Shown here: positions 36,975-55,770 of the stretch, piece by piece
How the letters are laid out: each line of letters opens with the position of its first letter
Position numbering within the stretch: position 1 is the stretch's first letter
Source: Prochlorococcus sp. AG-347-L17
Lineage (GTDB): Bacteria; Cyanobacteriota; Cyanobacteriia; PCC-6307; Cyanobiaceae
Reading direction: 5' to 3'
Assembly (NCBI GenBank): GCA_003278925.1
Contig: QCCN01000001.1
Coordinates: 62,001-126,000 of the forward strand
Length of the DNA stretch: 64,000 bases
Program-made: the position numbers and the translations under genes
Notes under the pieces: generated by a model
Seen by the model: only the letters and a program-made list of their open reading frames with translations
What the model was told of the DNA's origin: nothing
Databases searched by the model: none

Positions 36975-38447
36975 ATGAACAATTTGGAATCTTGGGAAGC
37001 TGTGATTGGTTTGGAAACTCATGTACAGCTTAATACGAAAAGTAAAATATTCACATCTGCGTCAACAGCTTTTGGTGATGCACCTAATACCCATATAGAT
37101 CCTGTAGTTTGTGGGTTGCCAGGAACTCTTCCAGTTCTGAATGAGACTGTTCTTGAGTATGCTGTAAAAACTTCGTTAGCATTAAATTTAAACGTTGCAG
37201 AACATTGTAAATTTGATAGAAAACAATATTTTTATCCTGATCTTCCTAAAAATTATCAAATTTCACAATTTGATGAGCCACTAGCTGAAAATGGTTGGTT
37301 AGAGGTTGAAATAATTGAAAAGGACAAAGAACCTTATATCAAAAAAATTGGTATAGAAAGGCTACATATGGAAGAAGACGCCGGAAAACTAGTCCATTCA
37401 GGAAGTGATAGGTTAGCTGGCTCTAAGTATTCTTTAGTTGATTACAATCGTGCCGGAATAGCACTTTGTGAGATTGTAAGTAAACCAGATATTAGATCAG
37501 GTAAAGAGGCATCTGAATATGCTTCAGAGATTAGAAGAACAGTTAGATATCTAGGGGTATCAGACGGAAATATGCAAGAGGGTTCATTACGCTGCGATGT
37601 CAATATTTCAGTTAGAAAAGGACCTAATGCTCCTTTTGGTACCAAAGTGGAAATAAAAAATATGAATTCATTTTCTGCAATTCAAAAGGCTTGTGATTAT
37701 GAAATAGCCAGACAAATAGAAGTTTATGAAAATGGAGGAAAAATTTTCCAAGAAACAAGGTTATGGGATGAAGGTAAGCAATTAACGAAAAGTATGAGAT
37801 TAAAAGAAGGTAGCAGTGACTATAGATATTTTCCTGATCCTGACTTAGGTCCAATTGAAATAACAAAAGCCCAACAAGAAATATGGTTTAAAGAACTACC
37901 AGAATTACCTTCAAAGAAAAGATATAAATACATTAGTCAATTTGGGTTGTCTGCATATGATGCAAGGGTAATTTCTGATGAAATAAGCATGGCAAACTTT
38001 TTTGAAGAAACAGTAGCAAATGGTGCTGAGGCTAAACTAGCTTCAAATTGGGTAACTAGTGATATTGTGGGCTATTTAAAATCAAATAAACTAAGTTTTA
38101 GTGAATTAAAGCTTAGTCCTGAAAATCTTGCTGAAATGATTAACATGATTTCAAAAAATATAATTAGTGGAAAAATTGCAAAAGAAATTTTACCTGAACT
38201 TATTCAAAAAAATATTTCCCCGAAAAAATTAGTTGAAGAAAAAGGGTTGGCAATGATATCTGATTCTTCAAGTATTTCACCAATAATTGATGCACTTATA
38301 AATGAACATCCAAATGAAGTTCAAGCATTTAAAAATGGCAAAACTAAGTTACTTGGTTTTTTTGTTGGTCAACTTATGAAAAGAACAAAAGGTAAAGCTG
38401 ACCCTAAACTCGCAAATAAACTTCTTATGGAAAAATTAAATAGCTAA
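36975..38447 (+). CDS. gatB: Aspartyl/glutamyl-tRNA amidotransferase subunit B
   Basis: GatB with GatC/GatA converts Glu-tRNA(Gln) to Gln-tRNA(Gln), needed in organisms lacking a full GlnRS set. I chose ATG 36975 (MNNLESWEAVIGLETHVQLNT), the family N-terminus; the upstream in-frame ATG at 36918 adds 19 hydrophobic residues unlike GatB. YFYPDLPKNYQISQ, HMEEDAGKL and the C-terminal YqeY-like helical domain are clear. 490 residues. Confidence 0.97.
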   Translation: MNNLESWEAVIGLETHVQLNTKSKIFTSASTAFGDAPNTHIDPVVCGLPGTLPVLNETVLEYAVKTSLALNLNVAEHCKFDRKQYFYPDLPKNYQISQFDEPLAENGWLEVEIIEKDKEPYIKKIGIERLHMEEDAGKLVHSGSDRLAGSKYSLVDYNRAGIALCEIVSKPDIRSGKEASEYASEIRRTVRYLGVSDGNMQEGSLRCDVNISVRKGPNAPFGTKVEIKNMNSFSAIQKACDYEIARQIEVYENGGKIFQETRLWDEGKQLTKSMRLKEGSSDYRYFPDPDLGPIEITKAQQEIWFKELPELPSKKRYKYISQFGLSAYDARVISDEISMANFFEETVANGAEAKLASNWVTSDIVGYLKSNKLSFSELKLSPENLAEMINMISKNIISGKIAKEILPELIQKNISPKKLVEEKGLAMISDSSSISPIIDALINEHPNEVQAFKNGKTKLLGFFVGQLMKRTKGKADPKLANKLLMEKLNS

Positions 38448-38450
38448 AGC

Positions 38451-39068
38451 TTAAATAAGCTCTTTTATCGTATTGATCCATTTATTTTGATCATCCGAAT
38501 TCTCTAAAATGATATCTGAGAATTTTCTTTTTTCTTCAAAACTTAATTGAAAATTTATCAATTCATATGCTTCTTTTTCGCTAATTTTATCTCTTGTGAT
38601 AAGTCTGTTTTTTTGTATTTCTTTAGGACATTTAACTAACCATATTTCAGTGCAAATATCTTCAAATTTTGCTTCAAACAATAATGGAATAACCAACATT
38701 ATCGTTTGATTATTTCTGTATTGACTGCATTCTTCTATCATTCTTTCTTTAATTAAGGGGTGCAGTAGTTTTTCAATCCATTCCTTGCTTGCTGAATGTT
38801 TAAAAATAATGTTCCTTAAAAGTTTTCTGTTTATTTCCCTTTCTGAATTGCTTTTATTATCAATAATTTTATTTCCAAAATAATCTAAAATTTTCTTATA
38901 TCCATATGTGTTTGGTTTGATTAATTCTCTTGAAAAATGATCTGCATCTAATATTGGTATGTTTTTATGTTTTCTTATGTAATTAGTTATGGTTGTCTTC
39001 CCACTTGCAATACCTCCTGTTAAACCAATCCTTCTTTGGTTGTTTTTTAATTTTTGAAGAATATCCAT
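38451..39068 (-). CDS. coaE: Dephospho-CoA kinase
   Basis: CoaE phosphorylates dephospho-CoA in the final step of coenzyme A synthesis. The P-loop GLTGGIASGKTTI is at the N-terminus, followed by DADHFSREL and VPLLFEA, the family CoA-binding blocks. 205 residues. It converges on gatB with a 3-base gap and is divergent from argJ. Confidence 0.95.
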   Translation of the reverse strand: MDILQKLKNNQRRIGLTGGIASGKTTITNYIRKHKNIPILDADHFSRELIKPNTYGYKKILDYFGNKIIDNKSNSEREINRKLLRNIIFKHSASKEWIEKLLHPLIKERMIEECSQYRNNQTIMLVIPLLFEAKFEDICTEIWLVKCPKEIQKNRLITRDKISEKEAYELINFQLSFEEKRKFSDIILENSDDQNKWINTIKELI

Positions 39069-39143
39069 ATAATTAATAATAATCTAATTACTTAGTTTCT
39101 TTAGTATTAAAGAGTAGTTAGTATGAATTAAAATACCAAAATT

Positions 39144-40382
39144 TTGAGCCAGTTAGATTCCAATTGGTCGTTTGTTGATGACAGTAAGGTAACACCTAAG
39201 GGGTTTCTTTTTGCTGGGATATCTGCTGGTTTAAAAGCTTCTAATAAAAAAGATTTAGCACTAATACTCGCTCCAGAAGGAAGTATTTTTAGTGGGATGT
39301 TTACCCAATCAATAGTTCGAGCTTCTTGTGTGGATATTTGTGAGCAAAGGATTAAAACAACTTCAGGTTTTGGAAGGGCAATACTAATTAATTCTGGTCA
39401 AGCAAATGCATGTACAGGAAATCTTGGTATTCAACATTTTCAAATTGCTACAGGAAAGATTGCGGAACTTTTAGGAATAAAAGAAGAAGAAGTTTTAATG
39501 TGCTCAACTGGTGTAATTGGTGTTCCAATACAAATAAATGACTTAGTAAAAAATTTACCGAATTTAGTTAGTGATTTAAAGGGTAACAATTTTCAAAGTG
39601 CAGCAGAAGCAATTTTAACTACTGATTTGACTTTGAAAAAAGTGTCAATAGAGACGGTTATCCTAGGTAGAAAAATAAAAATAGCAGGATTTGCAAAAGG
39701 TTCAGGAATGATTTACCCCAATATGGCTACAATGCTTGCCTTTCTAACCTGTGATGCGGGTATTCAAAAAGAAGAATGGGACAAAATGATTGCTATTGCA
39801 GTTAAAAAATCTTTTAATGCAATATCAGTTGATGGAGAGACAAGCACAAATGATTCTTTTGTTGGAATAAATGCAGGAGAGAAAATTGAAAAAAGGTTTT
39901 TTCCAATTATCCAACAAGGGATTGATATTGTATGTCAGAACTTGGCAAAAAATATAGCAAGGGATGGAGAGGGAGCAAATTGTTTATTAGAAGTTTTGGT
40001 TCAAGGAGCAAAAAATACAGATGATGCAATTATGCTTGCGAAATCTATTTGTAATTCTGCCTTGGTAAAAACTGCGATACATGGTTGTGATCCGAATTGG
40101 GGACGAATCATTTCTGCAGCAGGTAATTCTGGAGTTAAATTTAATTTAAATGATGTTGACTTGTATATAGGAAACGTTCAGATTTTGGAAAATGGCAAGT
40201 TAAATAAATATGATCCACAAAAAGTCACAGACTATATTAAGTCCAGAATGAAAGGTAGATATTTAGTAGATGATATTGTAAAAATTATGATTAATCTAAA
40301 TTCTGGCGAATCGAAAGGCACAGCTTGGGGGTGCGATCTTTCTAAAAAGTATGTTGAAATAAATAGCGAATATACAACTTAA
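39144..40382 (+). CDS. argJ: Bifunctional ornithine acetyltransferase / N-acetylglutamate synthase
   Basis: ArgJ recycles the acetyl group between acetylornithine and glutamate in arginine synthesis. The autocleavage site KGSGMIYPNMATML is present, with the nucleophile Thr196 at the start of the beta chain. The C-terminus EINSEYTT is the conserved ArgJ ending. Start TTG 39144 gives 412 residues. The final 27 bases (40356-40382, including the stop) reappear as in-frame, stop-terminated copies at 42482-42523 and 44023-44046, marking argJ's 3' end as an integration site. Confidence 0.96.
   Translation: MSQLDSNWSFVDDSKVTPKGFLFAGISAGLKASNKKDLALILAPEGSIFSGMFTQSIVRASCVDICEQRIKTTSGFGRAILINSGQANACTGNLGIQHFQIATGKIAELLGIKEEEVLMCSTGVIGVPIQINDLVKNLPNLVSDLKGNNFQSAAEAILTTDLTLKKVSIETVILGRKIKIAGFAKGSGMIYPNMATMLAFLTCDAGIQKEEWDKMIAIAVKKSFNAISVDGETSTNDSFVGINAGEKIEKRFFPIIQQGIDIVCQNLAKNIARDGEGANCLLEVLVQGAKNTDDAIMLAKSICNSALVKTAIHGCDPNWGRIISAAGNSGVKFNLNDVDLYIGNVQILENGKLNKYDPQKVTDYIKSRMKGRYLVDDIVKIMINLNSGESKGTAWGCDLSKKYVEINSEYTT
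40356..40382 (+). repeat. argJ 3'-end repeat, resident copy
   Basis: The last nine codons of argJ. The 20 bases 40356-40375 recur exactly at 42497-42516, and the 26 bases 40357-40382 recur with three mismatches at 44021-44046. This is the proximal member of three att-like direct repeats. Confidence 0.85.
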
Positions 40383-40427
40383 CGCTAAAACATAGTTATA
40401 TCAACTGATTTGAAGATTATTAATATG

Positions 40428-40446
40428 TTGCTTACGGTCTGCTTAC
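40428..40446. repeat. Paired TTGCTTAC-type 8-mers
   Basis: TTGCTTAC at 40428 and CTGCTTAC at 40439, one 11-base period apart. A matching pair with the same spacing lies at 42357-42375 and a third, 12-base-period pair at 42417-42436, so each is near an argJ-tail copy. Possible binding sites for a site-specific protein. Confidence 0.45.
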
Positions 40447-40492
40447 ATTAAATTAGAACTTATTATTACTAATTTAATTTAGTCGCATTAGG

Positions 40493-40660
40493 TTAAACAT
40501 ATCCATTAACTATGGTTGGATGTTCTTGGTTTTTGAACATTTTTCTATAATCATCATGCAATCTTTCAGTTGCCAATTTTCTTTTCTTCATTGCATCTCG
40601 GATTAAATCCATTTCATTGAATTTTCGATTGAGAATGGTGAATGGAGTAGTTAGTTTCAT
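40493..40660 (-). CDS. 55-residue small protein
   Basis: A frame from ATG 40660 encoding MKLTTPFTILNRKF at the N-terminus, a basic helix (RDAMKKRKLATERLHDDYRKM) and a short tail. The start is preceded by AGAGG at the right distance. It is the first of several island microproteins whose N-termini share the pattern M(K/S)L-F-I. Function unknown. Confidence 0.6.
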   Translation of the reverse strand: MKLTTPFTILNRKFNEMDLIRDAMKKRKLATERLHDDYRKMFKNQEHPTIVNGYV

Positions 40661-40698
40661 AAAACCTCTTTTTTTAATAAAGACTAAAAATTAATAAC

Positions 40699-40881
40699 TC
40701 AATCGCAGTAAATTAAACAATTTTGATTTGTTGGATGTTCTCTACATTCTTTCTCCCAAAAGTTTTGAAACTCAGGATTGCACTTCTCAAGTTCTTTTGG
40801 GGTTTCGTTTAGATTTAATCCTGCATAGTTAAACGCAGTTAAGTATCTTGGAAGAATGTTAAATTGATTGAATAGTTTCAT
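40699..40881 (-). CDS. 60-residue small protein with Cys-rich tail
   Basis: A frame from ATG 40881 with a strong AGGAGG ribosome binding site eight bases upstream (unusual in this genome) and N-terminus MKLFNQFNILPRYL, related to the 40660 gene. The tail has four cysteines (CNPEF, ECREH, NCLIYCD). Likely a real microprotein of the module; function unknown. Confidence 0.7.
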   Translation of the reverse strand: MKLFNQFNILPRYLTAFNYAGLNLNETPKELEKCNPEFQNFWEKECREHPTNQNCLIYCD

Positions 40882-40917
40882 AAGACCTCCTAGATCTATG
40901 TCTATATTGTCCTCCTA

Positions 40918-40943
40918 TTGACTTGAAATTCATAGAGTATTAT
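40918..40943 (+). promoter_or_regulatory. Candidate promoter of the small RNA
   Basis: TTGACT (40918-40923) and TATTAT (40938-40943); the 14-base spacer is short, so only the -10 box is persuasive. It would start a transcript near 40950. Confidence 0.3.
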
Positions 40944-40949
40944 TACCCG

Positions 40950-41099
40950 AGTAAAAGTGCTTTGTGGTTGTTACGACTATCTTTTCTCGTTCAGTAGGAG
41001 TAGAAATAATTCAGGAGTCAAAAGCACTTCATCGACTTTGTGGACAGCGAGGTGCATACGACTCGAAGAGGGCAAACAAATGCCCTCTTATTTTATTTT
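40950..41099 (+). ncRNA. Candidate small RNA (or leader RNA)
   Basis: About 150 bases with RNA-like structure and no credible frame: AAGTGCTTT (40955-40963) pairs with AAAGCACTT (41021-41029), and an 8-pair GC-rich terminator hairpin closes the unit. It could be a stand-alone sRNA or a terminated leader of the thiamine-binding protein gene that starts 92 bases later; I see no TPP-riboswitch consensus. Ends are inferred. Confidence 0.5.
41067..41099 (+). terminator. Strong intrinsic terminator
   Basis: AGAGGGCA (41067-41074), a six-base loop, TGCCCTCT (41081-41088), then a TATTTTATTTT tail. It is the clearest intrinsic terminator in the window, oriented for the + strand. Confidence 0.85.
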
Positions 41100-41190
41100 C
41101 AGGAAACTTTTACTGGTTTTCTTCGCTAAATTTTAAGGATATTAAGCATTTAGAATGTAAATAGTTAGATTTATAAAAATAGAAAAAATT

Positions 41191-41484
41191 ATGTTTGTAA
41201 GTATTGATTTATGTTTAGTCCCGATTGGGGTTGGAACTTCTTTATCACCTTACATAAAAGAATGTATTGAAGTTATAAAAAGTGAAGGACTTTCCTACGA
41301 ATTAGGTGCTAATGGAACTGCTATAGAAGGAGATTGGGATAAGGTATTTGAATGTGTTAGAAAGTGTCATGAAAAAATTCATGAAAAAGGCGCTCCTAGA
41401 ATTTATACAACGATGAAAGTAAATACAAGAACTGATAAAGAACAAAAATTTTCAGATAAAGTTAAAAGTGTATTAGAGAAGTAA
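41191..41484 (+). CDS. Thiamine-binding protein, MTH1187/YkoF-like family
   Basis: A 97-residue protein of the MTH1187 (UPF0045) family. FVSIDLCLVPIGVGTSLSPYI, YELGANGTAIEGDWD and KGAPRIYTTMKV match the family blocks. Members are dimeric or tetrameric ferredoxin-fold proteins related to YkoF that bind thiamine or its precursors in the cytosol. It sits inside the first argJ module among microproteins, so it is an unusual cargo gene; no transporter is adjacent. Confidence 0.88.
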   Translation: MFVSIDLCLVPIGVGTSLSPYIKECIEVIKSEGLSYELGANGTAIEGDWDKVFECVRKCHEKIHEKGAPRIYTTMKVNTRTDKEQKFSDKVKSVLEK

Positions 41485-41515
41485 TGAAAATGAAAAGAGA
41501 GAGAGGAATGAATCA

Positions 41516-41695
41516 ATGACTCAATGGAATGACAAATCTTGGCAGAAAGACTTCTTGAATATGAAGTCACATTCTCCTTCAGATGCAAAACTCTTAATGG
41601 GGGGTGTAAAAGGTTTGAAAGATGCTTGGCGACTAGGTGTTCTTCACGTTGAATATGAAAGACTAAAGAAAATACAAGAGCAGCAACAGCAATGA
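41516..41695 (+). CDS. 59-residue small protein
   Basis: A frame from ATG 41516 after a GAGAGAGGAATG-like binding site. The helical body W..KDFL...LLMGGVKGLKDAWRLGVLHVEYERLKKIQ resembles that of the next gene, which it overlaps as ATGA, so the two are probably paralogues translated as a coupled pair. No known family recognised; the length and high helix content suggest a small dimeric protein. Confidence 0.65.
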   Translation: MTQWNDKSWQKDFLNMKSHSPSDAKLLMGGVKGLKDAWRLGVLHVEYERLKKIQEQQQQ

Positions 41696-41922
41696 AAGAA
41701 GAAATAGATTGGAAAAAAGAAATTCTTGAGAGTAGAGTCTTCAACAGCAAGTTTCAAAAGAACCTTTTAGAGGATGGAGCAAAGAATTTTATGCAGGGAA
41801 TCTATCTTGGTTATATGTATTCCAGATGGAAGAAGTTGAAAGGATATGACAAGTTTGATCCAAAAGAAAATACAGGGCAAATGCAATCATCATTAAAAGA
41901 GTTTTGGAAGAGAACTAAATGA
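41692..41922 (+). CDS. 76-residue small protein, paralogue of the preceding gene
   Basis: Starts at ATG 41692, overlapping the previous stop (ATGA), and overlaps the next gene the same way. The alignable region, W.KEIL...NSKFQKNLLEDGAKNFMQGIYLGYMYSRWKKLK, parallels the preceding protein in helix, Gly and aromatic positions. A tandem duplication with divergence is the simplest reading. Function unknown. Confidence 0.7.
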   Translation: MKEEIDWKKEILESRVFNSKFQKNLLEDGAKNFMQGIYLGYMYSRWKKLKGYDKFDPKENTGQMQSSLKEFWKRTK

Positions 41923-42050
41923 AGATAATTGCAAAAGTTCGATATTTAGATTTTCAAAAAAGATCTCACACAGTTGAAGTGCAAATTGCTATGCGTTATA
42001 AAATAATTGAGCATTTTAGTGATCATCTACAAAGCAATTTTCATGAATAA
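41919..42050 (+). CDS. 43-residue microprotein
   Basis: Starts at ATG 41919, overlapping the previous stop by ATGA, and ends two bases before the next start. It encodes MKIIAKVRYLDFQKRSHTVEV, a short beta-strand-like N-terminus and a helix with several histidines. Inclusion rests on the overlapping chain of starts and stops; no family recognised. Confidence 0.5.
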   Translation: MKIIAKVRYLDFQKRSHTVEVQIAMRYKIIEHFSDHLQSNFHE

Positions 42051-42052
42051 GA

Positions 42053-42256
42053 ATGTCATTATTTAACAAATTCTCGATTGAAGATATGATACTTTCAAGC
42101 AAAGAGGCATATAAAAAGGAACTCAAGAAAGGTGTGAGTTCACAAATAGGAAAGTCATTATTTAATAAATTCTCGATTAACGAGATCTTACTTTCAAGCA
42201 AAGAGGCATATAAAAAGGAACTCAAGAAAGGTGTGGGTTCACAAATAGGAAAGTAA
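42053..42256 (+). CDS. 67-residue microprotein made of two 33-residue repeats
   Basis: After the initiator Met the protein is two copies of one 33-residue unit (SLFNKFSI... to ...SQIGK). The two 99-bp halves (42056-42154 and 42155-42253) differ at seven positions only, so the duplication is recent. The unit's N-terminal part, SLFNKFSI, resembles the N-termini of the minus-strand genes at 40493 and 40699. It ends the small-gene chain of the first module. Function unknown; a dimerising helix is plausible. Confidence 0.75.
   Translation: MSLFNKFSIEDMILSSKEAYKKELKKGVSSQIGKSLFNKFSINEILLSSKEAYKKELKKGVGSQIGK
42056..42253 (+). repeat. 99-bp tandem duplication
   Basis: Two 99-bp units in frame, 92 of 99 bases identical, with most changes clustered in codons 9-13 of the unit and the remaining segment (from about 42091) almost identical. 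Confidence 0.9.
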
Positions 42257-42635
42257 TTAGATTTCCTCTTTAAAGTATGGTTGCAGTGTTTCCGAAAATG
42301 GTTTAGTGAGAATGTGCTTCTCAAGTATCTGAGTATTGGTTTCAGAGGAAGTCAACTTGCTTACGTTTTGCTTATAGTTACAAAGTAGAAATTAAGTTAT
42401 TACTTAATTTTTAACTACCGCTTAGACTTTGCTTACAGTTGTATTCATTTAAAAAAGTTAGTTATTGCAGTCTTTTATAGTGATTATCTTTCTATAGAAA
42501 TAAATAGCGAATATACTATATAGTCTGAGATCAACTGTGCTGCAGTTGAAGTGAAGGAATAGTAAAACGATATGACACTAATATGACAGTAGATTTCAAT
42601 GAATTTATTAATTTCAACTAATTAATTTAAAAATT
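42257..42635. other. Spacer with recombination-like repeats and argJ-tail copy
   Basis: 379 bases without a convincing gene. It holds two TTGCTTAC-type pairs (42357-42375, 42417-42436), the second argJ-tail copy (42482-42523) and a small inverted repeat CAACTG/CAGTTG (42532-42548). The stretch marks the border between the two modules. Confidence 0.6.
42482..42523 (+). repeat. argJ 3'-end repeat, second copy
   Basis: Reads in frame as D-Y-L-S-I-E-I-N-S-E-Y-T-I-stop, matching ArgJ's EINSEYT ending; the 20 bases 42497-42516 are identical to argJ. A shared CTTTCT block lies nine bases (three codons) closer than in argJ. Confidence 0.85.
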
Positions 42636-43667
42636 TTATTTAAGTTTATAAATTGCTAAATCTTTTGATTTAATTTCTTTAAGTGCAATTTTTTCAAGTC
42701 TTTCTAATCTTGATAATAGTTGCTTATTTTTTCCCTCGAGAGATTCAATTTTGTTCTTTAAATTTTCCTTCTCTTTCATACTGATTTGAGTTGGTTTTAT
42801 GGCCTTACCTAATTTCCATACAAATCCTGCTCTTGCAGAAAAAGTATCTTCAAAATTACCTGCATAATCTTGACCAGGCATAGTTATAGATGCAGCATAA
42901 TTAATTGAAAATTTTTCATTTAATTTTGAGGCACAACCTCCAGAAAAAGCAAAATCTCCTCCGTGAGTTCCAGTCCCCAAACCGCAAGCAAGAGTTGTTT
43001 CAGTAGGGACTGTTGGTAAACCTGTAAGAGCAGCGCTTAAAGCTCCGACATTATTTATTGATTGCTCTACATCTCTTCCGTTAATAAGAAATTTTGAACC
43101 TTTCACATTTATTGGAATCTTCTTCCCATTAGCATCTTGTCCCCAAATATTTTGTTTGCCATCTTCTTCTTTAGTTACAAAAGAGTTTTCCCCTAGATGA
43201 TATTCACCATTAGTTTTCTTTTTAAGGAGAATATCATCTCCATATCCGACATTTATAGTTCCATCAGTAGATGCACTCACTGAACTTCTGGCCTCAACAA
43301 CTGTGTAATCTCCTCTCCATTCATCTCCCCTGGTTGTCCAGGTATCAGTTTCTAAATTGTAAGAATATATTTCATTGGCAGGTGTGGTGAACCATAAATC
43401 TCCACTAGTAGGATCTACGTAGGCAGAGTCGCTACTCAACCCTGTCTCACATTGCCCACCATAATTAGGCATTACCCAGCATTTAGTATCTCTTAATGTG
43501 GCTTGACCAGTATCATTATTTATTGTGTAAAAGTCATATCCTTTACCTGTTGCATCTGAATTCGTTTTTATTGCCCAAAAGTCCCAATCTGCCTTAACTT
43601 GAGTTGAATATGGTATCAGTATTGATGAAGTTATGATTGCAGTAAAAAGTTTTTTTGAAAACGCCAT
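42636..43667 (-). CDS. Exported protein with YadA-like anchor and C-terminal coiled coil
   Basis: A 343-residue protein with a signal peptide (about 1-26). The middle (about 27-200) is a beta-rich domain with repeated aromatic/Asp blocks (NNDTGQATL, DPTSGDLWFTTPA). Then comes VGALSAALTGLP... to GFVWKLGK, which resembles the YadA membrane anchor of trimeric autotransporters. A Lys/Glu heptad segment (about 300-335) follows, which is unusual, because in classical adhesins the barrel is last and the coiled coil precedes it. It is the sole gene of the second module and probably a cell-surface protein. Confidence 0.7.
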   Translation of the reverse strand: MAFSKKLFTAIITSSILIPYSTQVKADWDFWAIKTNSDATGKGYDFYTINNDTGQATLRDTKCWVMPNYGGQCETGLSSDSAYVDPTSGDLWFTTPANEIYSYNLETDTWTTRGDEWRGDYTVVEARSSVSASTDGTINVGYGDDILLKKKTNGEYHLGENSFVTKEEDGKQNIWGQDANGKKIPINVKGSKFLINGRDVEQSINNVGALSAALTGLPTVPTETTLACGLGTGTHGGDFAFSGGCASKLNEKFSINYAASITMPGQDYAGNFEDTFSARAGFVWKLGKAIKPTQISMKEKENLKNKIESLEGKNKQLLSRLERLEKIALKEIKSKDLAIYKLK

Positions 43668-44038
43668 AATTTTTACTTGTTGAAAAGGAATTCCCTTTTT
43701 TTTGGTTTGAATATAAGTTTTTATATTTAATAAATAGTAATTTTTCTTACAAAAATATATATTTTTATCATTAAAAAATTTTTTATTAACTGCACGTTGA
43801 CAAGAAGTAGTAAATTTCCACCCCCCATCTCAATGCTGAATATTCACCTTTGGTATAAATGTGATTATTCTGTGATTACTCCTAAGATCACAGAAATTGA
43901 TTCTAATTATTTAAGTGGGGTTTGTATTGGAAAATCTAAAACTGTGATTATTTTTTAGAAACTGCCAATATTCATAGCAACGTATTACAGCAAGATGTAT
44001 ATACTAAATGCTTAGGGTTTAAATTAATAGCGAATATT
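43668..44038. other. Spacer with inverted repeat and module end
   Basis: 371 bases without a convincing gene. It contains a GGAATTCC palindrome region with an A/T flank upstream of the YadA-like gene (about 43683-43703), a perfect 7-base inverted repeat CTGTGAT/ATCACAG (43870-43893), and the third argJ-tail copy at its right edge. Confidence 0.6.
43870..43893. promoter_or_regulatory. Inverted repeat, possible operator
   Basis: CTGTGAT and ATCACAG in inverted orientation around a 10-base spacer. It does not match the CRP spacing (N6) or NtcA consensus, so a hairpin or unknown operator. Confidence 0.35.
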
Positions 44039-44046
44039 CTACTTAA
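44021..44046 (+). repeat. argJ 3'-end repeat, third copy
   Basis: From 44023 it reads I-N-S-E-Y-S-T-stop, the ArgJ ending with one substitution. Over 26 bases it differs from argJ at three positions and, unlike the second copy, retains the argJ stop context ACTTAA. It overlaps the 3' end of the 44039 membrane-protein frame on the other strand. Confidence 0.85.
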
Positions 44047-44284
44047 GTTTTAGTAAATCTAATGGTAGATATTCATTCACATAAAAAAACAGTATTGTTA
44101 ATGTTCCAATTACAGAGCCTATAAAACCTCCAAAAAAATTAACTAATAATCCAGATTGTCTAATTATTGCTTCTTCGTTTTTTTCTTCTTCTTCAAAATT
44201 AGGAGAATCAACTACTTTTAAGCGCTGATTGGTTGTTGGTTGTTTAAGTTGTTGGTGTCGGATGAGGGCTTCGAAATCAGGCAT
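44039..44284 (-). CDS. Small single-pass membrane protein
   Basis: An 81-residue protein from ATG 44284 (44308 is an alternative), with an acidic linker (NFEEEEKNEEAI) and one hydrophobic segment near the C-terminus (LLVNFFGGFIGSVIGTLTILFFY). Its start overlaps the end of the ParA-like gene by 67 bases in another frame, an unusually long overlap that suggests coupled translation. It may anchor the ParA-like protein; this is inference. Confidence 0.6.
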   Translation of the reverse strand: MPDFEALIRHQQLKQPTTNQRLKVVDSPNFEEEEKNEEAIIRQSGLLVNFFGGFIGSVIGTLTILFFYVNEYLPLDLLKLK

Positions 44285-44889
44285 GGAATTTGTGAGGCAA
44301 TTGAACAATAAGCAGACCAGCCCGTCATTCGACGAGGATCTGATCTACCTAAATCGTCTACAGCTTCAAATACAGCATTGCCCGAGGCTTCTGCTTTATC
44401 AAATGCTGAAAGTAAGGGTATAAATGTATCAAAAACATATAAACCAAAATTTTCTAGAGCTGCTTTGGCTTGTTGCGCTGCTTTTTGCTGTCTAAAATCA
44501 ACTTTTACTATCGCTACTGCATGGTTAACTTTTAAGTTGCTTAATAAATTAGCTAGTTCAACAGTTAATTCTACTGATCTTGCTTTTGCAGTTGTAGGTA
44601 AGATAACTAAATCTGAACCATACGCTAAGTGTTTAAGTTCTTCTTGATCACTGCTAGCCTGGCCGTCAGTTATTACAATTTCGGATGATCTTGATGCTTT
44701 AGCAGCTGAACTGACGGGGAAAACTGGAAATGGAAGATTGCCTCTTGATGCGTATGCTAAAGCAGATCTATTCTTGTCGGCATCAACTATGCAAACTTTT
44801 TTACCTTCAGAATGCCAAACACTAGCAAGGTGAATACTTGTGCAGGTCTTGGCCACACCCCCTTTTTGTCCGCAAACGGTAATGAACAA
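44218..44889 (-). CDS. ParA/MinD-like ATPase
   Basis: A 223-residue P-loop ATPase with the deviant Walker motif GQKGGVAKT of the ParA/MinD family, VDADKNRSA with the Walker A' aspartate, and ILPTTAKARS. It is short and has no partner ParB in view. Start TTG 44889 gives the typical F-I-T-V beginning. Family members position DNA or protein cargo; what this one moves is unknown. It lies at the right edge of the argJ islands and could be either core or cargo. Confidence 0.88.
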   Translation of the reverse strand: MFITVCGQKGGVAKTCTSIHLASVWHSEGKKVCIVDADKNRSALAYASRGNLPFPVFPVSSAAKASRSSEIVITDGQASSDQEELKHLAYGSDLVILPTTAKARSVELTVELANLLSNLKVNHAVAIVKVDFRQQKAAQQAKAALENFGLYVFDTFIPLLSAFDKAEASGNAVFEAVDDLGRSDPRRMTGWSAYCSIASQIPCLISKPSSDTNNLNNQQPISA

Positions 44890-45039
44890 TTTTTTATTTT
44901 TATTTCTCTTACTTTGGAGAATAATTTCTTAATGTCAAGAGAAATTGATTTTTAATGCTTTAAAACTTATTCTTTGAAATATTTTAAAGAAGTCAATATT
45001 TTTAGATAACCTTAGAAAGTTCCTTATTTAAATTGGTTA

Positions 45040-46002
45040 GTGAAGAAAAGAATTGGATTAGGTACGTGGTCTTGGGGGAATAAGCTTTTCTGGAATTACC
45101 AATCTACAAATGATGATGATTTGCGTGAGACATATAATGAAGCGTTACGAAGAGGTTTCGATCTAATTGATACTGCAGATTCTTATGGTACTGGGAATCT
45201 TCAGGGTAGAAGTGAATTGTTGATAGGAAAATTTTTATTAAATACTCCTTCAGCAAAGAAAAAAAGAATTCAAGTTGCAACCAAACTTGCACCTTATCCC
45301 TGGAGAATAGGTAACAGAGGTTTTAATAAACCTTTTTTGAAAAGTTTAGAAAGACTTAATAACAAATTAGATATAGTGCAATTACATTGGTCAACAGCAA
45401 AATACAATCCTTGGCAGGAATTACAGCTGTTGAATAATCTTTGCGATTTAAAAGATGAAGGCTTTGATTTTCAAATAGGCTTATCAAATATAGGCCCTAA
45501 AAGATTGATGAAATTAATTAATTTCTTGGCAAAAAGAGATCAGAGACTAAATAGTGTTCAGATACAGTTTTCTTTGCTTGCTCCCGATTTAGGAAAACAA
45601 TATCAGGTAAAAAAAATTTGCGAAGAAAATAATATTGATTTCTTTGCTTATAGTCCTTTGTCCTTTGGAATACTTTGTATGGATCCAGATAAAGAAGAGA
45701 ATAAAGAAAAAAGTTTTATTCGCAATGCATTATTTGAAAACTATAAAAAACCAACATATGAATTGCGGAGGTGTTTAAAAACAATTGCAAATCAAAGATC
45801 AGTTTCCCAAGCGCAAGTAGCAATTAATTGGTGTTGTTATCAAGGAGCTATTCCACTCGTTGGAATGCGAAAAAAATCTCAAGTTATTGATGTATCGAAT
45901 GTATTAAAGTGGAATTTAAATAAAAGTGAATTTAAAGAACTTCAGGAATTTTCAAAACAATGTTTAAAAAAAATGCCTAAAAATCCTTTTTCGAGTATTT
46001 AA
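45040..46002 (+). CDS. Aldo/keto reductase
   Basis: A 320-residue AKR with the family motifs LIDTADSYG (catalytic Asp and Tyr) and QVATKLAPYPW (Lys), and the IGLSNIGPK barrel block with nearby QIQFSLLAP. Start GTG 45040 gives the MKKRIGLGTWSWG beginning. NADPH-dependent carbonyl reduction is known for the family; the substrate is unknown. A conserved cyanobacterial type AKR. Confidence 0.93.
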   Translation: MKKRIGLGTWSWGNKLFWNYQSTNDDDLRETYNEALRRGFDLIDTADSYGTGNLQGRSELLIGKFLLNTPSAKKKRIQVATKLAPYPWRIGNRGFNKPFLKSLERLNNKLDIVQLHWSTAKYNPWQELQLLNNLCDLKDEGFDFQIGLSNIGPKRLMKLINFLAKRDQRLNSVQIQFSLLAPDLGKQYQVKKICEENNIDFFAYSPLSFGILCMDPDKEENKEKSFIRNALFENYKKPTYELRRCLKTIANQRSVSQAQVAINWCCYQGAIPLVGMRKKSQVIDVSNVLKWNLNKSEFKELQEFSKQCLKKMPKNPFSSI

Positions 46003-46010
46003 TTAAATTT

Positions 46011-46148
46011 TTAGCTAGATATTTTCTTATTTTTTTTAATTTGACAACCACTATTCCATAGTTCATTGGGAAATTTTTCGCCAGTGAATCTAATAATTTT
46101 TGGTTTGAGATTTATTATCAAGTCATTCAGTTTTTTATTAGATTCCAT
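46011..46148 (-). CDS. Possible 45-residue small protein
   Basis: A frame from ATG 46148 encoding a basic protein (MESNKKLNDLIINLKPKII) with FTGEKFPNELWNSGCQIKKN in the middle. It lies between the aldo/keto reductase and the tmRNA gene, and I see no strong ribosome binding site. The composition is protein-like, but I do not recognise a family. Confidence 0.4.
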   Translation of the reverse strand: MESNKKLNDLIINLKPKIIRFTGEKFPNELWNSGCQIKKNKKISS

Positions 46149-46302
46149 TTTGCAAGATTCGATTTTTTAATAAGATAAATTAATTTAAAACTTATCTTCT
46201 CAGTATTTATACTTATAAAATTAAAAAAATTCTTTTTAATACAAGCATTTGCAGCAATATTTACATATTAATAAATTATCTATTACAACTTCTTAGTTAT
46301 TT

Positions 46303-46600
46303 AAAAAAGTGGAGTCCTTCCAGACTCCTAGTATCATTTGGTTGATAAGGCTGATATAACCCCATCTCCTTTAGGATCAAGCAGCAACAGGTGCTGTTTG
46401 ACGGGAGAAACTAACGATTTTGTTAGCATTTGTGTTTTTGCTCTAACCGAGCAGGCTTCAGTCACCTTCCTTATGCCCCGTCGAAACCATTACAACCCCA
46501 AATAGTGGAGTTGAGCGGAATCGAACCGCTGTCCGAAACATCGGTTGAGATCACCTAGTCCAATTGGACATTTATATTCTGACAGGCAAAATGGTTATTG
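46303..46600 (-). ncRNA. ssrA: Two-piece (circularly permuted) tmRNA
   Basis: tmRNA rescues stalled ribosomes. Read on the minus strand, the acceptor half comes first, ending in T-arm GGTTCGATTCC and CAACTCC (3' end near 46506), then only about six bases later the coding half starts with GGGGTTGTAATGG (46499). The 7-pair acceptor stem GGGGUUG/CAACUCC joins the two. The tag reads ANKIVSFSRQTAPVAA (46377-46427), the known Prochlorococcus tag. The CCA is not encoded. A terminator-like hairpin GGAGTC/GACTCC with T-run ends it near 46303. The 5' limit (about 46600) is approximate. Confidence 0.92.
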
Positions 46601-46631
46601 AATAGTTTTTTTTTATTAAGTTTTAGCGTAT

Positions 46632-47756
46632 ATGAATGTAGTGGCATCATCTCCGGAGGGACTAGAGAAATCTTTAGCAGAAGAAATTTCAAATTTAGGC
46701 GGCTTTAATATTAATACTTTTAAAAGATTTATTAATTTTGAATGTGATTTTGAAACTTTTTATAGAGTTCATTTCTTTTCCAGATTAGCTTTTCGTTTTT
46801 ATAGACAAATTGCAATTTTTAATTGCTACGACAAGCAATCTTTATATGCGGGGGTTAGAGATTCATTTGATTGGTTAAATTGGTTGCACTTTGATAAAAC
46901 GTTTAATGTTCAAGTAACTGGTAGAACATCTTCTTTAAGTCATACGCATTTCACTGCTCTTGAAGTAAAAAATTCTATAACTGATTTGCAACAGGCAGTT
47001 TGGAATAAAAGATCAAATATTTCTCTTGATAATCCTGATTTTATAATTCATCTGCATTTAAATAATAATAAAGCAATTCTCAGTCTTCAAAGCAGCGTAG
47101 ACAGCTTACACAAAAGAGGATACAGACCCGCAATTGGAAATGCTCCATTAAAAGAAAATTTAGCTTCTGGATTGATAAATATGACTCAATGGAATGGCAA
47201 AGTTCCATTAATAGATTTTATGTGTGGCTCAGGAACTTTTTTAATTGAGGCAGTCAACCAATTTCTTGGAGTTCCCATAAATATTGATCAAGTATATCTT
47301 TTTGAGAATTGGTTGGACTTTAGGGAAGATATTTATCTTAATGAAAAAAATAAGGCAAAAAATAAAATTATAAATTATGAAAAATTACCAACAATAATAG
47401 GGTGTGAAATTAATAAAAAGGTTTTTGAGCAGGCGAATATAAACATATCATTAGCTGGACTCGAAAATTATATTGAGCTTATAAATAATGATTTTTTAGC
47501 ACTACAATTACGTTGCATTCCTGGGATAATCATATGTAATCCTCCTTACGGCAAAAAATTAGGCGATGAAAATGAATTGATTTGTTTATATGAACAAATG
47601 GGAATCTTCCTAAAGAAAAATTTTTCAGGTTGGGAATTTTGGCTGCTAAGTGGAAATGCAAAACTAACAAAATATTTGAAAATGAAATCTTCCTTAAAAA
47701 TTCCTGTTAGTAATGGGGGGATAGATTGTAGATGGATAAAGTATTTAATTAGGTAA
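46632..47756 (+). CDS. THUMP-domain rRNA/RNA methyltransferase (RlmL-like)
   Basis: A 374-residue protein with an N-terminal THUMP domain (about 45-150) and a Rossmann methyltransferase domain: PLIDFMCGSGTFLIEA (SAM site, about 195-210) and IICNPPYGKKLG with the N6/N2 methyltransferase NPPY motif. It resembles the N-terminal half of RlmL/RlmK-type 23S rRNA G2445 methyltransferases. Substrate is inferred. Confidence 0.9.
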   Translation: MNVVASSPEGLEKSLAEEISNLGGFNINTFKRFINFECDFETFYRVHFFSRLAFRFYRQIAIFNCYDKQSLYAGVRDSFDWLNWLHFDKTFNVQVTGRTSSLSHTHFTALEVKNSITDLQQAVWNKRSNISLDNPDFIIHLHLNNNKAILSLQSSVDSLHKRGYRPAIGNAPLKENLASGLINMTQWNGKVPLIDFMCGSGTFLIEAVNQFLGVPINIDQVYLFENWLDFREDIYLNEKNKAKNKIINYEKLPTIIGCEINKKVFEQANINISLAGLENYIELINNDFLALQLRCIPGIIICNPPYGKKLGDENELICLYEQMGIFLKKNFSGWEFWLLSGNAKLTKYLKMKSSLKIPVSNGGIDCRWIKYLIR

Positions 47757-55403: not shown

Positions 55404-55428
55404 TGCAGTTAAACCAGAATACATTAAA

Positions 55429-55510
55429 TGCGGACGGCGAGACTTGAACTCGCAAGGCCGAAGCCACACGCTCCTTAGACGTGCGCGTCTACCAATTCCG
55501 CCACGTCCGC
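55429..55510 (-). tRNA. tRNA-Leu (anticodon AAG)
   Basis: An 82-base cloverleaf: acceptor GCGGACG/CGTCCGC with discriminator A, D-stem GCG/CGC, anticodon stem CACGT/GCGTG (one U-G), loop CTAAGGA giving anticodon AAG, a class II variable arm GGC-TTCG-GCC, and T-arm GCGAG-TTCAAGT-CTCGC. The CCA is not encoded. The unmodified A at position 34 is rare in bacteria; it would need deamination to inosine to read CUC as well as CUU. Confidence 0.95.
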
Positions 55511-55770
55511 AAAGGGTTTTCAGCAACCGGGGGATACCTAAACCTTAAAAACATAATACATTATTGGCTGAAATAAGCATGTAGTTCAAAAAGAGTTTTT
55601 TTGTATATGATGAATAATTTTTCTATTGCATAAAACAAATATTTATACATATATAACGTTTTAGGTTGTATTGTAAAAAATGTCCTCTGATCACTAAAAA
55701 ATTTTGTTGAATATTTTGGCAAATAATTTTTTATTTTAAGTCATTTCATTTCTTCAATTTAATTTTCATA

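Follow-up and report, generated by a model that had tools for sequence, protein, structure and literature searches.

The 3′ end of argJ as a probable attachment site for small, stacked integrative elements in Prochlorococcus

The last codons of argJ recur downstream of the gene in a 64,000-nucleotide stretch of Prochlorococcus sp. AG-347-L17 (contig QCCN01000001.1, positions 62,001 to 126,000; hereafter the window). It is very probable that the 3′ end of argJ is the attachment site (attB) of small integrative elements that insert by site-specific recombination, stack behind one another, mostly lack an integrase and would be moved in trans. The recurrence of the argJ tails is confirmed, with three direct copies at 40353-40382, 42494-42523 and 44017-44046. 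At the level of sequence, comparison with related genomes shows a common site, hybrid junctions, empty sites, stacking, restoration of the gene end, and integrases in rare members; we infer a circular intermediate, action in trans, the pairing of integrases with particular module ends and the route between cells.

argJ tail copies in the window

The locus is organized as follows.

39144..40382, + strand: argJ, the target gene (open reading frame, ORF), whose last codons and stop are supplied by module 1
40353..40382, + strand: copy 1 of the tail, the left junction (attL), with the core AATAGCGAATATAC at 40362-40375
40376..42502, + strand: module 1, with A-type ends and without an integrase
42494..42523, + strand: copy 2, the junction of modules 1 and 2, with the core at 42503-42516
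42517..44025, + strand: module 2, with a B-type left end and a C-type right end
44017..44046, + strand: copy 3, the right junction (attR), followed by the native empty-site flank
44047..44217, no strand: native flank up to the ParA-like gene, of the same length as in empty sites
44218..44889, − strand: ParA-like ATPase (profile searches), the right-hand anchor

Checked on the sequence, copies 1 and 2 are identical over 20 bases (40356-40375 and 42497-42516), and copy 3 matches at 23 of 26 bases. The original prediction placed three in-frame tails here and its copies are real, but the second in-frame copy spans 42497-42523 and does not start at 42482, and EINSEYTT comprises eight residues plus a stop. 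The copies had also been taken as the endings of different argJ alleles; they are instead att hybrids, each with a host half and an element half. All three occurrences of the 12-base core AATAGCGAATAT in the 1.52 Mb genome are at the argJ locus and on one strand, and the same pattern read backwards occurs once. A 17-base extended motif, with up to three mismatches, has four matches in the window versus 0.94 expected (two of 100 shuffles reach four), and the best three are the tail copies. In the window, tRNA or tmRNA genes were found only at 46286-46595 and 55428-55511, and an Rfam search of 38000-47500 returned tmRNA models only.

Occupied and empty argJ sites

argJ was detected in 226 of 266 genomes of the genus. 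The comparison covers 130 argJ loci, each from a different genome and one of them the window's. In 126 a single stretch holds both argJ and the ParA-like gene; the other four lack parA on the stretch and are outside the count. Most genomes were chosen from the argJ list for the length of their contigs. G106, G136, G152 and further stretches around repeated cores were chosen for their clustered cores, and ten of these entered the 126; L167 was omitted as a repeat of genome G022, and L174-L176 hold no argJ. Empty sites, with an argJ-parA gap of 172-178 bp, are present in 54 of the 126 genomes, and 72 sites are occupied, with gaps of 317-9517 bp. Leaving out the ten picked genomes and the window gives 62 occupied and 53 empty sites among 115, and a second, named genome collection, which overlaps the first sample, gives 38 empty, 36 occupied and six incomplete sites among 80; the cultured strain MIT 9314 is among the occupied ones. 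Judged on argJ plus its downstream flank, the genome closest to the window's (97.6%) has an empty site, and the next four have one or two modules.

All 72 occupied sites retain the native distal flank, in three cases beside a degraded core, and in 69 the spacing between parA and the last core copy is native, deviating by no more than 8 bp from 175. The original prediction of site-specific integration, in which the newcomer provides a new tail and the old one is left at the far edge, is thus borne out by the empty sites, the hybrid attL and attR, the native distal flanks and the element-specific ends. The empty sites and alternative cargo that it led us to seek in relatives are both present, and among the 126 genomes there is no case of cargo kept where the tails are absent, or of copies that are not conserved argJ ends.

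The two stacked modules proposed for the window are likewise upheld, and elsewhere there are up to four resolved modules per site. The number is one at 48 sites, two at 15, three at six and four at two; the one remaining site, L117, has no resolved module. The 104 resolved modules range from 142 to 9043 bp (median 1698 bp) and include end-only modules of 142-274 bp. Internal core candidates with five mismatches were not used as boundaries, and module counts in degraded arrays are therefore lower bounds.

A left-end motif has matches in nine of 151 genomes, and eight of the nine loci are at argJ arrays; the match in G134 (L247) is the only one of the nine without argJ or the core in the 3 kb read. 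A second chromosomal site was considered and rejected, as 17 of 20 further places with the 12-mer, fetched from other genomes, are inside unrelated ORFs; the remaining three are two argJ tails and one displaced distal copy. In other genera, eight of 20 genomes of the family have further argJ-tail copies, up to five in all, in an uncontrolled count that scanned for the local tail NADYTT with up to three mismatches as far as 12 kb behind argJ (4.5 kb for one stretch). A departure of another type is seen in G041 (L166, L283), where argJ and the proximal copies are on the minus strand at ~42 kb and the distal copy and native flank are on the plus strand at ~63 kb; this arrangement probably arose by an inversion that had one of its ends inside the array.

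Junctions and crossover

In a column comparison of 69 junction pairs, attL has the empty-site sequence through core position 13 and diverges at position 14, and attR is native from core position 0 rightward and diverges to the left of 0. A variant serine codon is present in 15 attL and shared by one attR partner, and 12 attL have a G at core position 8 where all 12 partner attR have an A, although individual cases may be obscured by codon drift or by recombination that affected argJ later. The crossover therefore lies near positions 6-7. All 69 attL encode INSEYTT and a stop, through 22 different strings in the last nine bases, whereas a single string accounts for 52 of the 54 empty sites; that so many strings encode one argJ end indicates that the elements supply the end under coding constraint. 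The target-gene end is thus restored by the element and the native end displaced, which is a feature of integrative elements that use gene 3′ ends.

These data suggest that a circular element carrying its own core copy AATAGCGAATATAC (attP) would pair with argJ and be inserted by one conservative crossover within the core. At the resulting attL, argJ would remain coding and end in codons of the element (T, T, stop), and the native end would move to the far side as attR. Both junctions retain the core, so further elements could insert and stack. Modules without an integrase may be moved in trans by the rare integrases found at argJ, or be carried by such elements within composites.

Outside the core, the ends of modules can be sorted by eye into left and right types that recur within families and are unrelated between them. 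Left ends fold with z below −1 more often than module middles do (33% of 101 versus 14% of 98), a weak difference as regards attC-like folding, obtained with RNA parameters. Module 2 of the window, with its B-type left and C-type right end, looks like a recombinant of two YadA cassettes, and related YadA cassettes lie side by side in several genomes.

Could the arrays have arisen without site-specific recombination? Each module lies between direct repeats, and inverted motifs are visible by eye at the ends in some families, as might be expected of transposition into argJ with target-site duplication, casposon-like or insertion sequence-like, in which the copies would be the duplicated target. 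However, the outer copies differ systematically within the core, one having the native and the other the element state; because of this any duplication beyond about 2 bp can be excluded. Among the ten of 63 cargo clusters that were annotated and the integrase cluster, Pfam recognized no transposase. We rejected target-site duplication on the core states of attL and attR, and regard it as largely refuted and hardly credible. Homologous recombination alone, with the tails as remnants of argJ-end duplications, could account for the mixed ends of module 2, the adjoining YadA cassettes and the 21 of 29 shared-module pairs that are no closer than argJ (see below). It is nonetheless highly improbable as the builder of the arrays, as the sequence common to junctions is only ~14-20 bp, the ends recur within families that are unrelated to one another, and there are end-only elements of 142-274 bp.

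Integrases and the source of recombinase

Tyrosine integrases are encoded within argJ modules of G046 (527 aa), G173 (468 aa) and G067 (457 aa). The 527-aa protein matches PF00589 above the Pfam cut-off and the 457-aa protein matches a SAM-like integrase domain above the cut-off, and both are integrases by PHROGs; all Pfam matches of the 468-aa protein are below the cut-off, and it is 57% identical to the 457-aa integrase. When the three integrases are aligned with a core recombinase described below and with one relative from a different genus, R, K, YxxRH and Y are invariant in all five proteins, and we take these to be the catalytic residues of tyrosine recombinases. In G334, a genome of another genus, a 33%-identical integrase is encoded inside the first module behind argJ (L331), in which there are also several similar small ORFs that, by eye, we take to resemble Nif11-type leader peptides of the prochlorosin kind.

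The ends of the integrase-bearing elements resemble those of integrase-less modules. The right end of the 468-aa element has 40 of 40 bases in common with an integrase-less 1261-bp module of G145. Best scores for the other two are 31 with A-type modules for the 527-aa element (maximum of 19 over 200 single-base shuffles) and 28 with C-type modules for the 457-aa element (maximum of 21 over 200 such shuffles). No integrase was found in the window's modules. The suggestion that a recombinase acts in trans is plausible, in that at least three of the 104 modules, in other genomes, carry an integrase.

Several observations count against this view. Integrases were recognized in only three of the 104 modules (at least), and their strong matches (58-100% identity) are in two and one of the 266 genus genomes, the carriers themselves; there is no match to any of the three in the window's genome. 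The second-best score of the 468-aa element (22, with the 457-aa element) barely exceeds the shuffle maximum of 21. The score of window module 1 against the 527-aa element is 19, which does no more than reach the shuffle maximum and is not significant; module 2 is outside the eight best for the 457-aa element, and no integrase was matched to end families D, E, F and G. The 6494-bp module of G173 (L171) encodes, by eye, a 238-aa resolvase-like ORF in addition to its 468-aa integrase. No excised circle was seen, in what are sequence data only. No carrier was found among phages, plasmids and viral contigs by BLAST, three viral-contig patterns and two integrase scans. Finally, a core tyrosine recombinase of 389 aa offers an alternative catalyst.

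This protein (389-392 aa; L156:835-2013 on contig C3 of the window's genome, beside a cobO-like gene by eye) was our initial lead candidate, superseded once integrases were found inside modules, and it remains a rival. Elements known as IMEX exploit the host's Xer recombinases, and integrase-less cassettes at argJ might exploit this one similarly. It is the sole PF00589 match in the genomes of the window, G136 and G152 (the latter two with three modules each), and 142 of 151 family genomes contain a match to it (weak in a few), which makes it family-wide, as the recurring argJ tails are. The sole-match argument is weak, since PF00589 misses the 457- and 468-aa integrases at the cut-off, and for the same reason other diverged integrases may be overlooked in unannotated cargo. 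Relatives at ~45% identity occur across the cyanobacterial class, with matches in 83 of 116 class genomes, ten of them family members (some weak or paralogous), and the core recombinase is thus not specific to the argJ system. No core-like site with up to two mismatches is present in seven 9-kb stretches around its gene, and argJ elements carry other integrases. We consider it unlikely that the host enzyme is the catalyst, and favor integrases encoded by rare elements at argJ.

A core serine recombinase was also considered and rejected. A ~220-aa resolvase-family match is present in 27 of 30 genomes, with T in place of the expected serine (GYARAT) in the three copies read, at what we presume to be the catalytic site; G049 has further resolvase copies, one of which keeps the serine.

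Weaker matches to the integrases are present in a few more genomes and lie elsewhere. Distant relatives of the 457-aa integrase (21-30% identity) are located ~10.7-11.6 kb upstream of argJ in G053, G200, G145, G172 and G110, and this nearly constant distance, judged from match positions, hints at a second hotspot. The corresponding position in the window is near flavodiiron-like genes at 26.9-30.5 kb.

Cargo

The contents of the window's two modules are as follows.

40493..40660, − strand: small ORF of 55 aa without a Pfam family
40699..40881, − strand: small ORF of 60 aa, with nothing above the Pfam cut-off and a near-identical ORF in four other listed arrays
40930..41095, + strand: conserved stretch resembling a small RNA (sRNA), with a terminator-like hairpin at its end, also in 13 other fetched loci
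41191..41484, + strand: thiamine-binding protein (PF01910, TIGR00106)
41516..41922, + strand: two microproteins, of 59 aa and 76 aa, from a family associated with phages, function unknown (phrog_16908, phrog_869)
42053..42256, + strand: 67-aa ORF on a 99-nt tandem duplication
42636..43667, − strand: YadA-like surface protein, with PF03895 below the Pfam cut-off

Cyanophage P-TIM68 has a short match over the second of the microproteins. The 99-nt tandem duplication (42040-42237) doubles a 33-residue unit within the 67-aa ORF, and a longer 100-aa version is present in the G152 array. The stretch at 40930-41095 is a candidate sRNA on sequence grounds: the copies in the 13 fetched loci are 91-98% identical to that in the window, and 13 sequences give a strong consensus fold with no covarying pair. 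A search of this stretch against Rfam gave no match at E 1.

Across the arrays, ORFs of 80 aa or more number 166; they are spread over 95 of the 104 modules and form 63 clusters. Representatives of ten clusters and the integrase cluster were annotated with Pfam, and ten proteins with PADLOC. The largest cluster is YadA-like and occurs in 43 of the 104 modules; its longest member matches YadA_anchor (PF03895) above the Pfam cut-off that the window copy does not reach. Other cargo includes an Mrr-type nuclease-helicase protein, a type II restriction-modification pair, PD-(D/E)XK and TPR proteins, and PEBP and thiamine-binding proteins. No conjugation genes were recognized in the ten annotated clusters. 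The 6494-bp module of G173 also has a ParB/methylase-like ORF with PADLOC methyltransferase matches.

Spread between genomes

The modules may be transferred from cell to cell, and two comparisons bear on this. On a tree of the flanks (125 of 126 rows) the occupied and empty labels change 43 times, versus 40.7 (sd 2.8) over 200 label shuffles, so that occupancy does not follow descent at this resolution; the power of the test is limited, as only 28 of the 122 inner branches carry a star. Among 29 pairs of shared modules, eight are closer than the argJ genes of their hosts (at most 97.1% versus 92.7%) and 21 are not, and module identity alone therefore does not prove transfer. The few phage and plasmid matches are short, covering 2-3% of the query.

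Relation to known systems

The argJ arrays are an integrase-poor variant of tandem integration at gene 3′ ends, resembling cis-mobilizable elements (CIMEs); the variant is new, and its kind is known. A literature search gave no account of argJ as an integration site, although a mention in the main tycheposon study cannot be excluded. As in CIMEs, the modules keep att sites, mostly lack an integrase and are stacked with other elements. CIMEs are further characterized by derivation, through deletion, from an integrative and conjugative or integrative and mobilizable element and by mobilization through accretion; what bears on this at argJ is that the ends of some families resemble those of integrase-bearing elements, and conjugation genes were sought through Pfam in part of the cargo. 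The closest parallel is in Streptococcus salivarius, where one report describes CIMEs and microCIMEs accreted at the 3′ ends of the protein genes rpmG, rpsI, fda and rplL, with att repeats at the gene end, tandem composites and integrase-less members (PMC7563491). The sizes given there are 1.2-13 kb for classical CIMEs and 130-220 bp for gene-less microCIMEs, compared with 142-9043 bp for argJ modules and 142-274 bp for end-only ones, and the composites there contain integrative and conjugative elements or integrative and mobilizable elements (or one mobilizable genomic island, MGI), whereas integrase carriers are three of 104 modules at argJ (PMC7563491). The argJ system also differs in having several end families on one core, another host and target, and no conjugation gene in the annotated cargo. 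Tandem genomic islands at ssrA in Dehalococcoides are likewise stacked behind one gene and bounded by gene-end repeats, and 15 of them, lacking an integration module, are suggested to be cis-mobilizable; they differ in their serine recombinases, tmRNA gene target and the presence of an integration module in 16 islands (PMC3146451). For tRNA genes, the Islander report describes both the signature left when the target gene is restored and the occurrence of arrays in tandem (PMC4383910).

Integrons collect gene cassettes at one communal site, as stacked modules of one or a few genes without their own recombinase. The argJ system is similar in its communal site, its small stacked modules and their lack of a recombinase, and differs in that no integrase lies beside the window's array, the coding end of a host gene is kept and there is no demonstrated attC fold. 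Nor do the window's modules hold an integrase, and the core recombinase is on another contig. A broader possibility, which we put forward tentatively and with more doubt than conviction, is that argJ serves as a family-wide communal platform for cassettes, on whose core unrelated integrase-less families would have converged and where rare argJ-specific integrases would serve them in trans, shuffling YadA-like surface proteins and restriction genes in an integron-like manner but with no integron integrase.

Few photosynthetic organisms are as abundant as Prochlorococcus, whose tycheposons have reportedly been described by Hackl et al. 2023. In another account these elements lie at tRNA genes and span 4-200 kbp, and gene exchange in the genus is tied mainly to tRNA-borne islands (PMC10872708). 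The argJ system is like them in its genus, tyrosine recombinases, site-specific integration and swapped cargo, and differs in having a protein-gene rather than a tRNA gene target and a median module of 1.7 kb (PMC10872708). To these routes of gene exchange argJ adds a protein-gene docking site that is largely used by passengers. The arrays offer a small, testable system for trans-mobilization; should the end-only modules (142-274 bp) prove to be mobile and not remnants, ~70 bp at each end would be enough. The argJ site, which is occupied in roughly half of the genomes sampled, could be a fast channel for change in the cell surface and in phage sensitivity.

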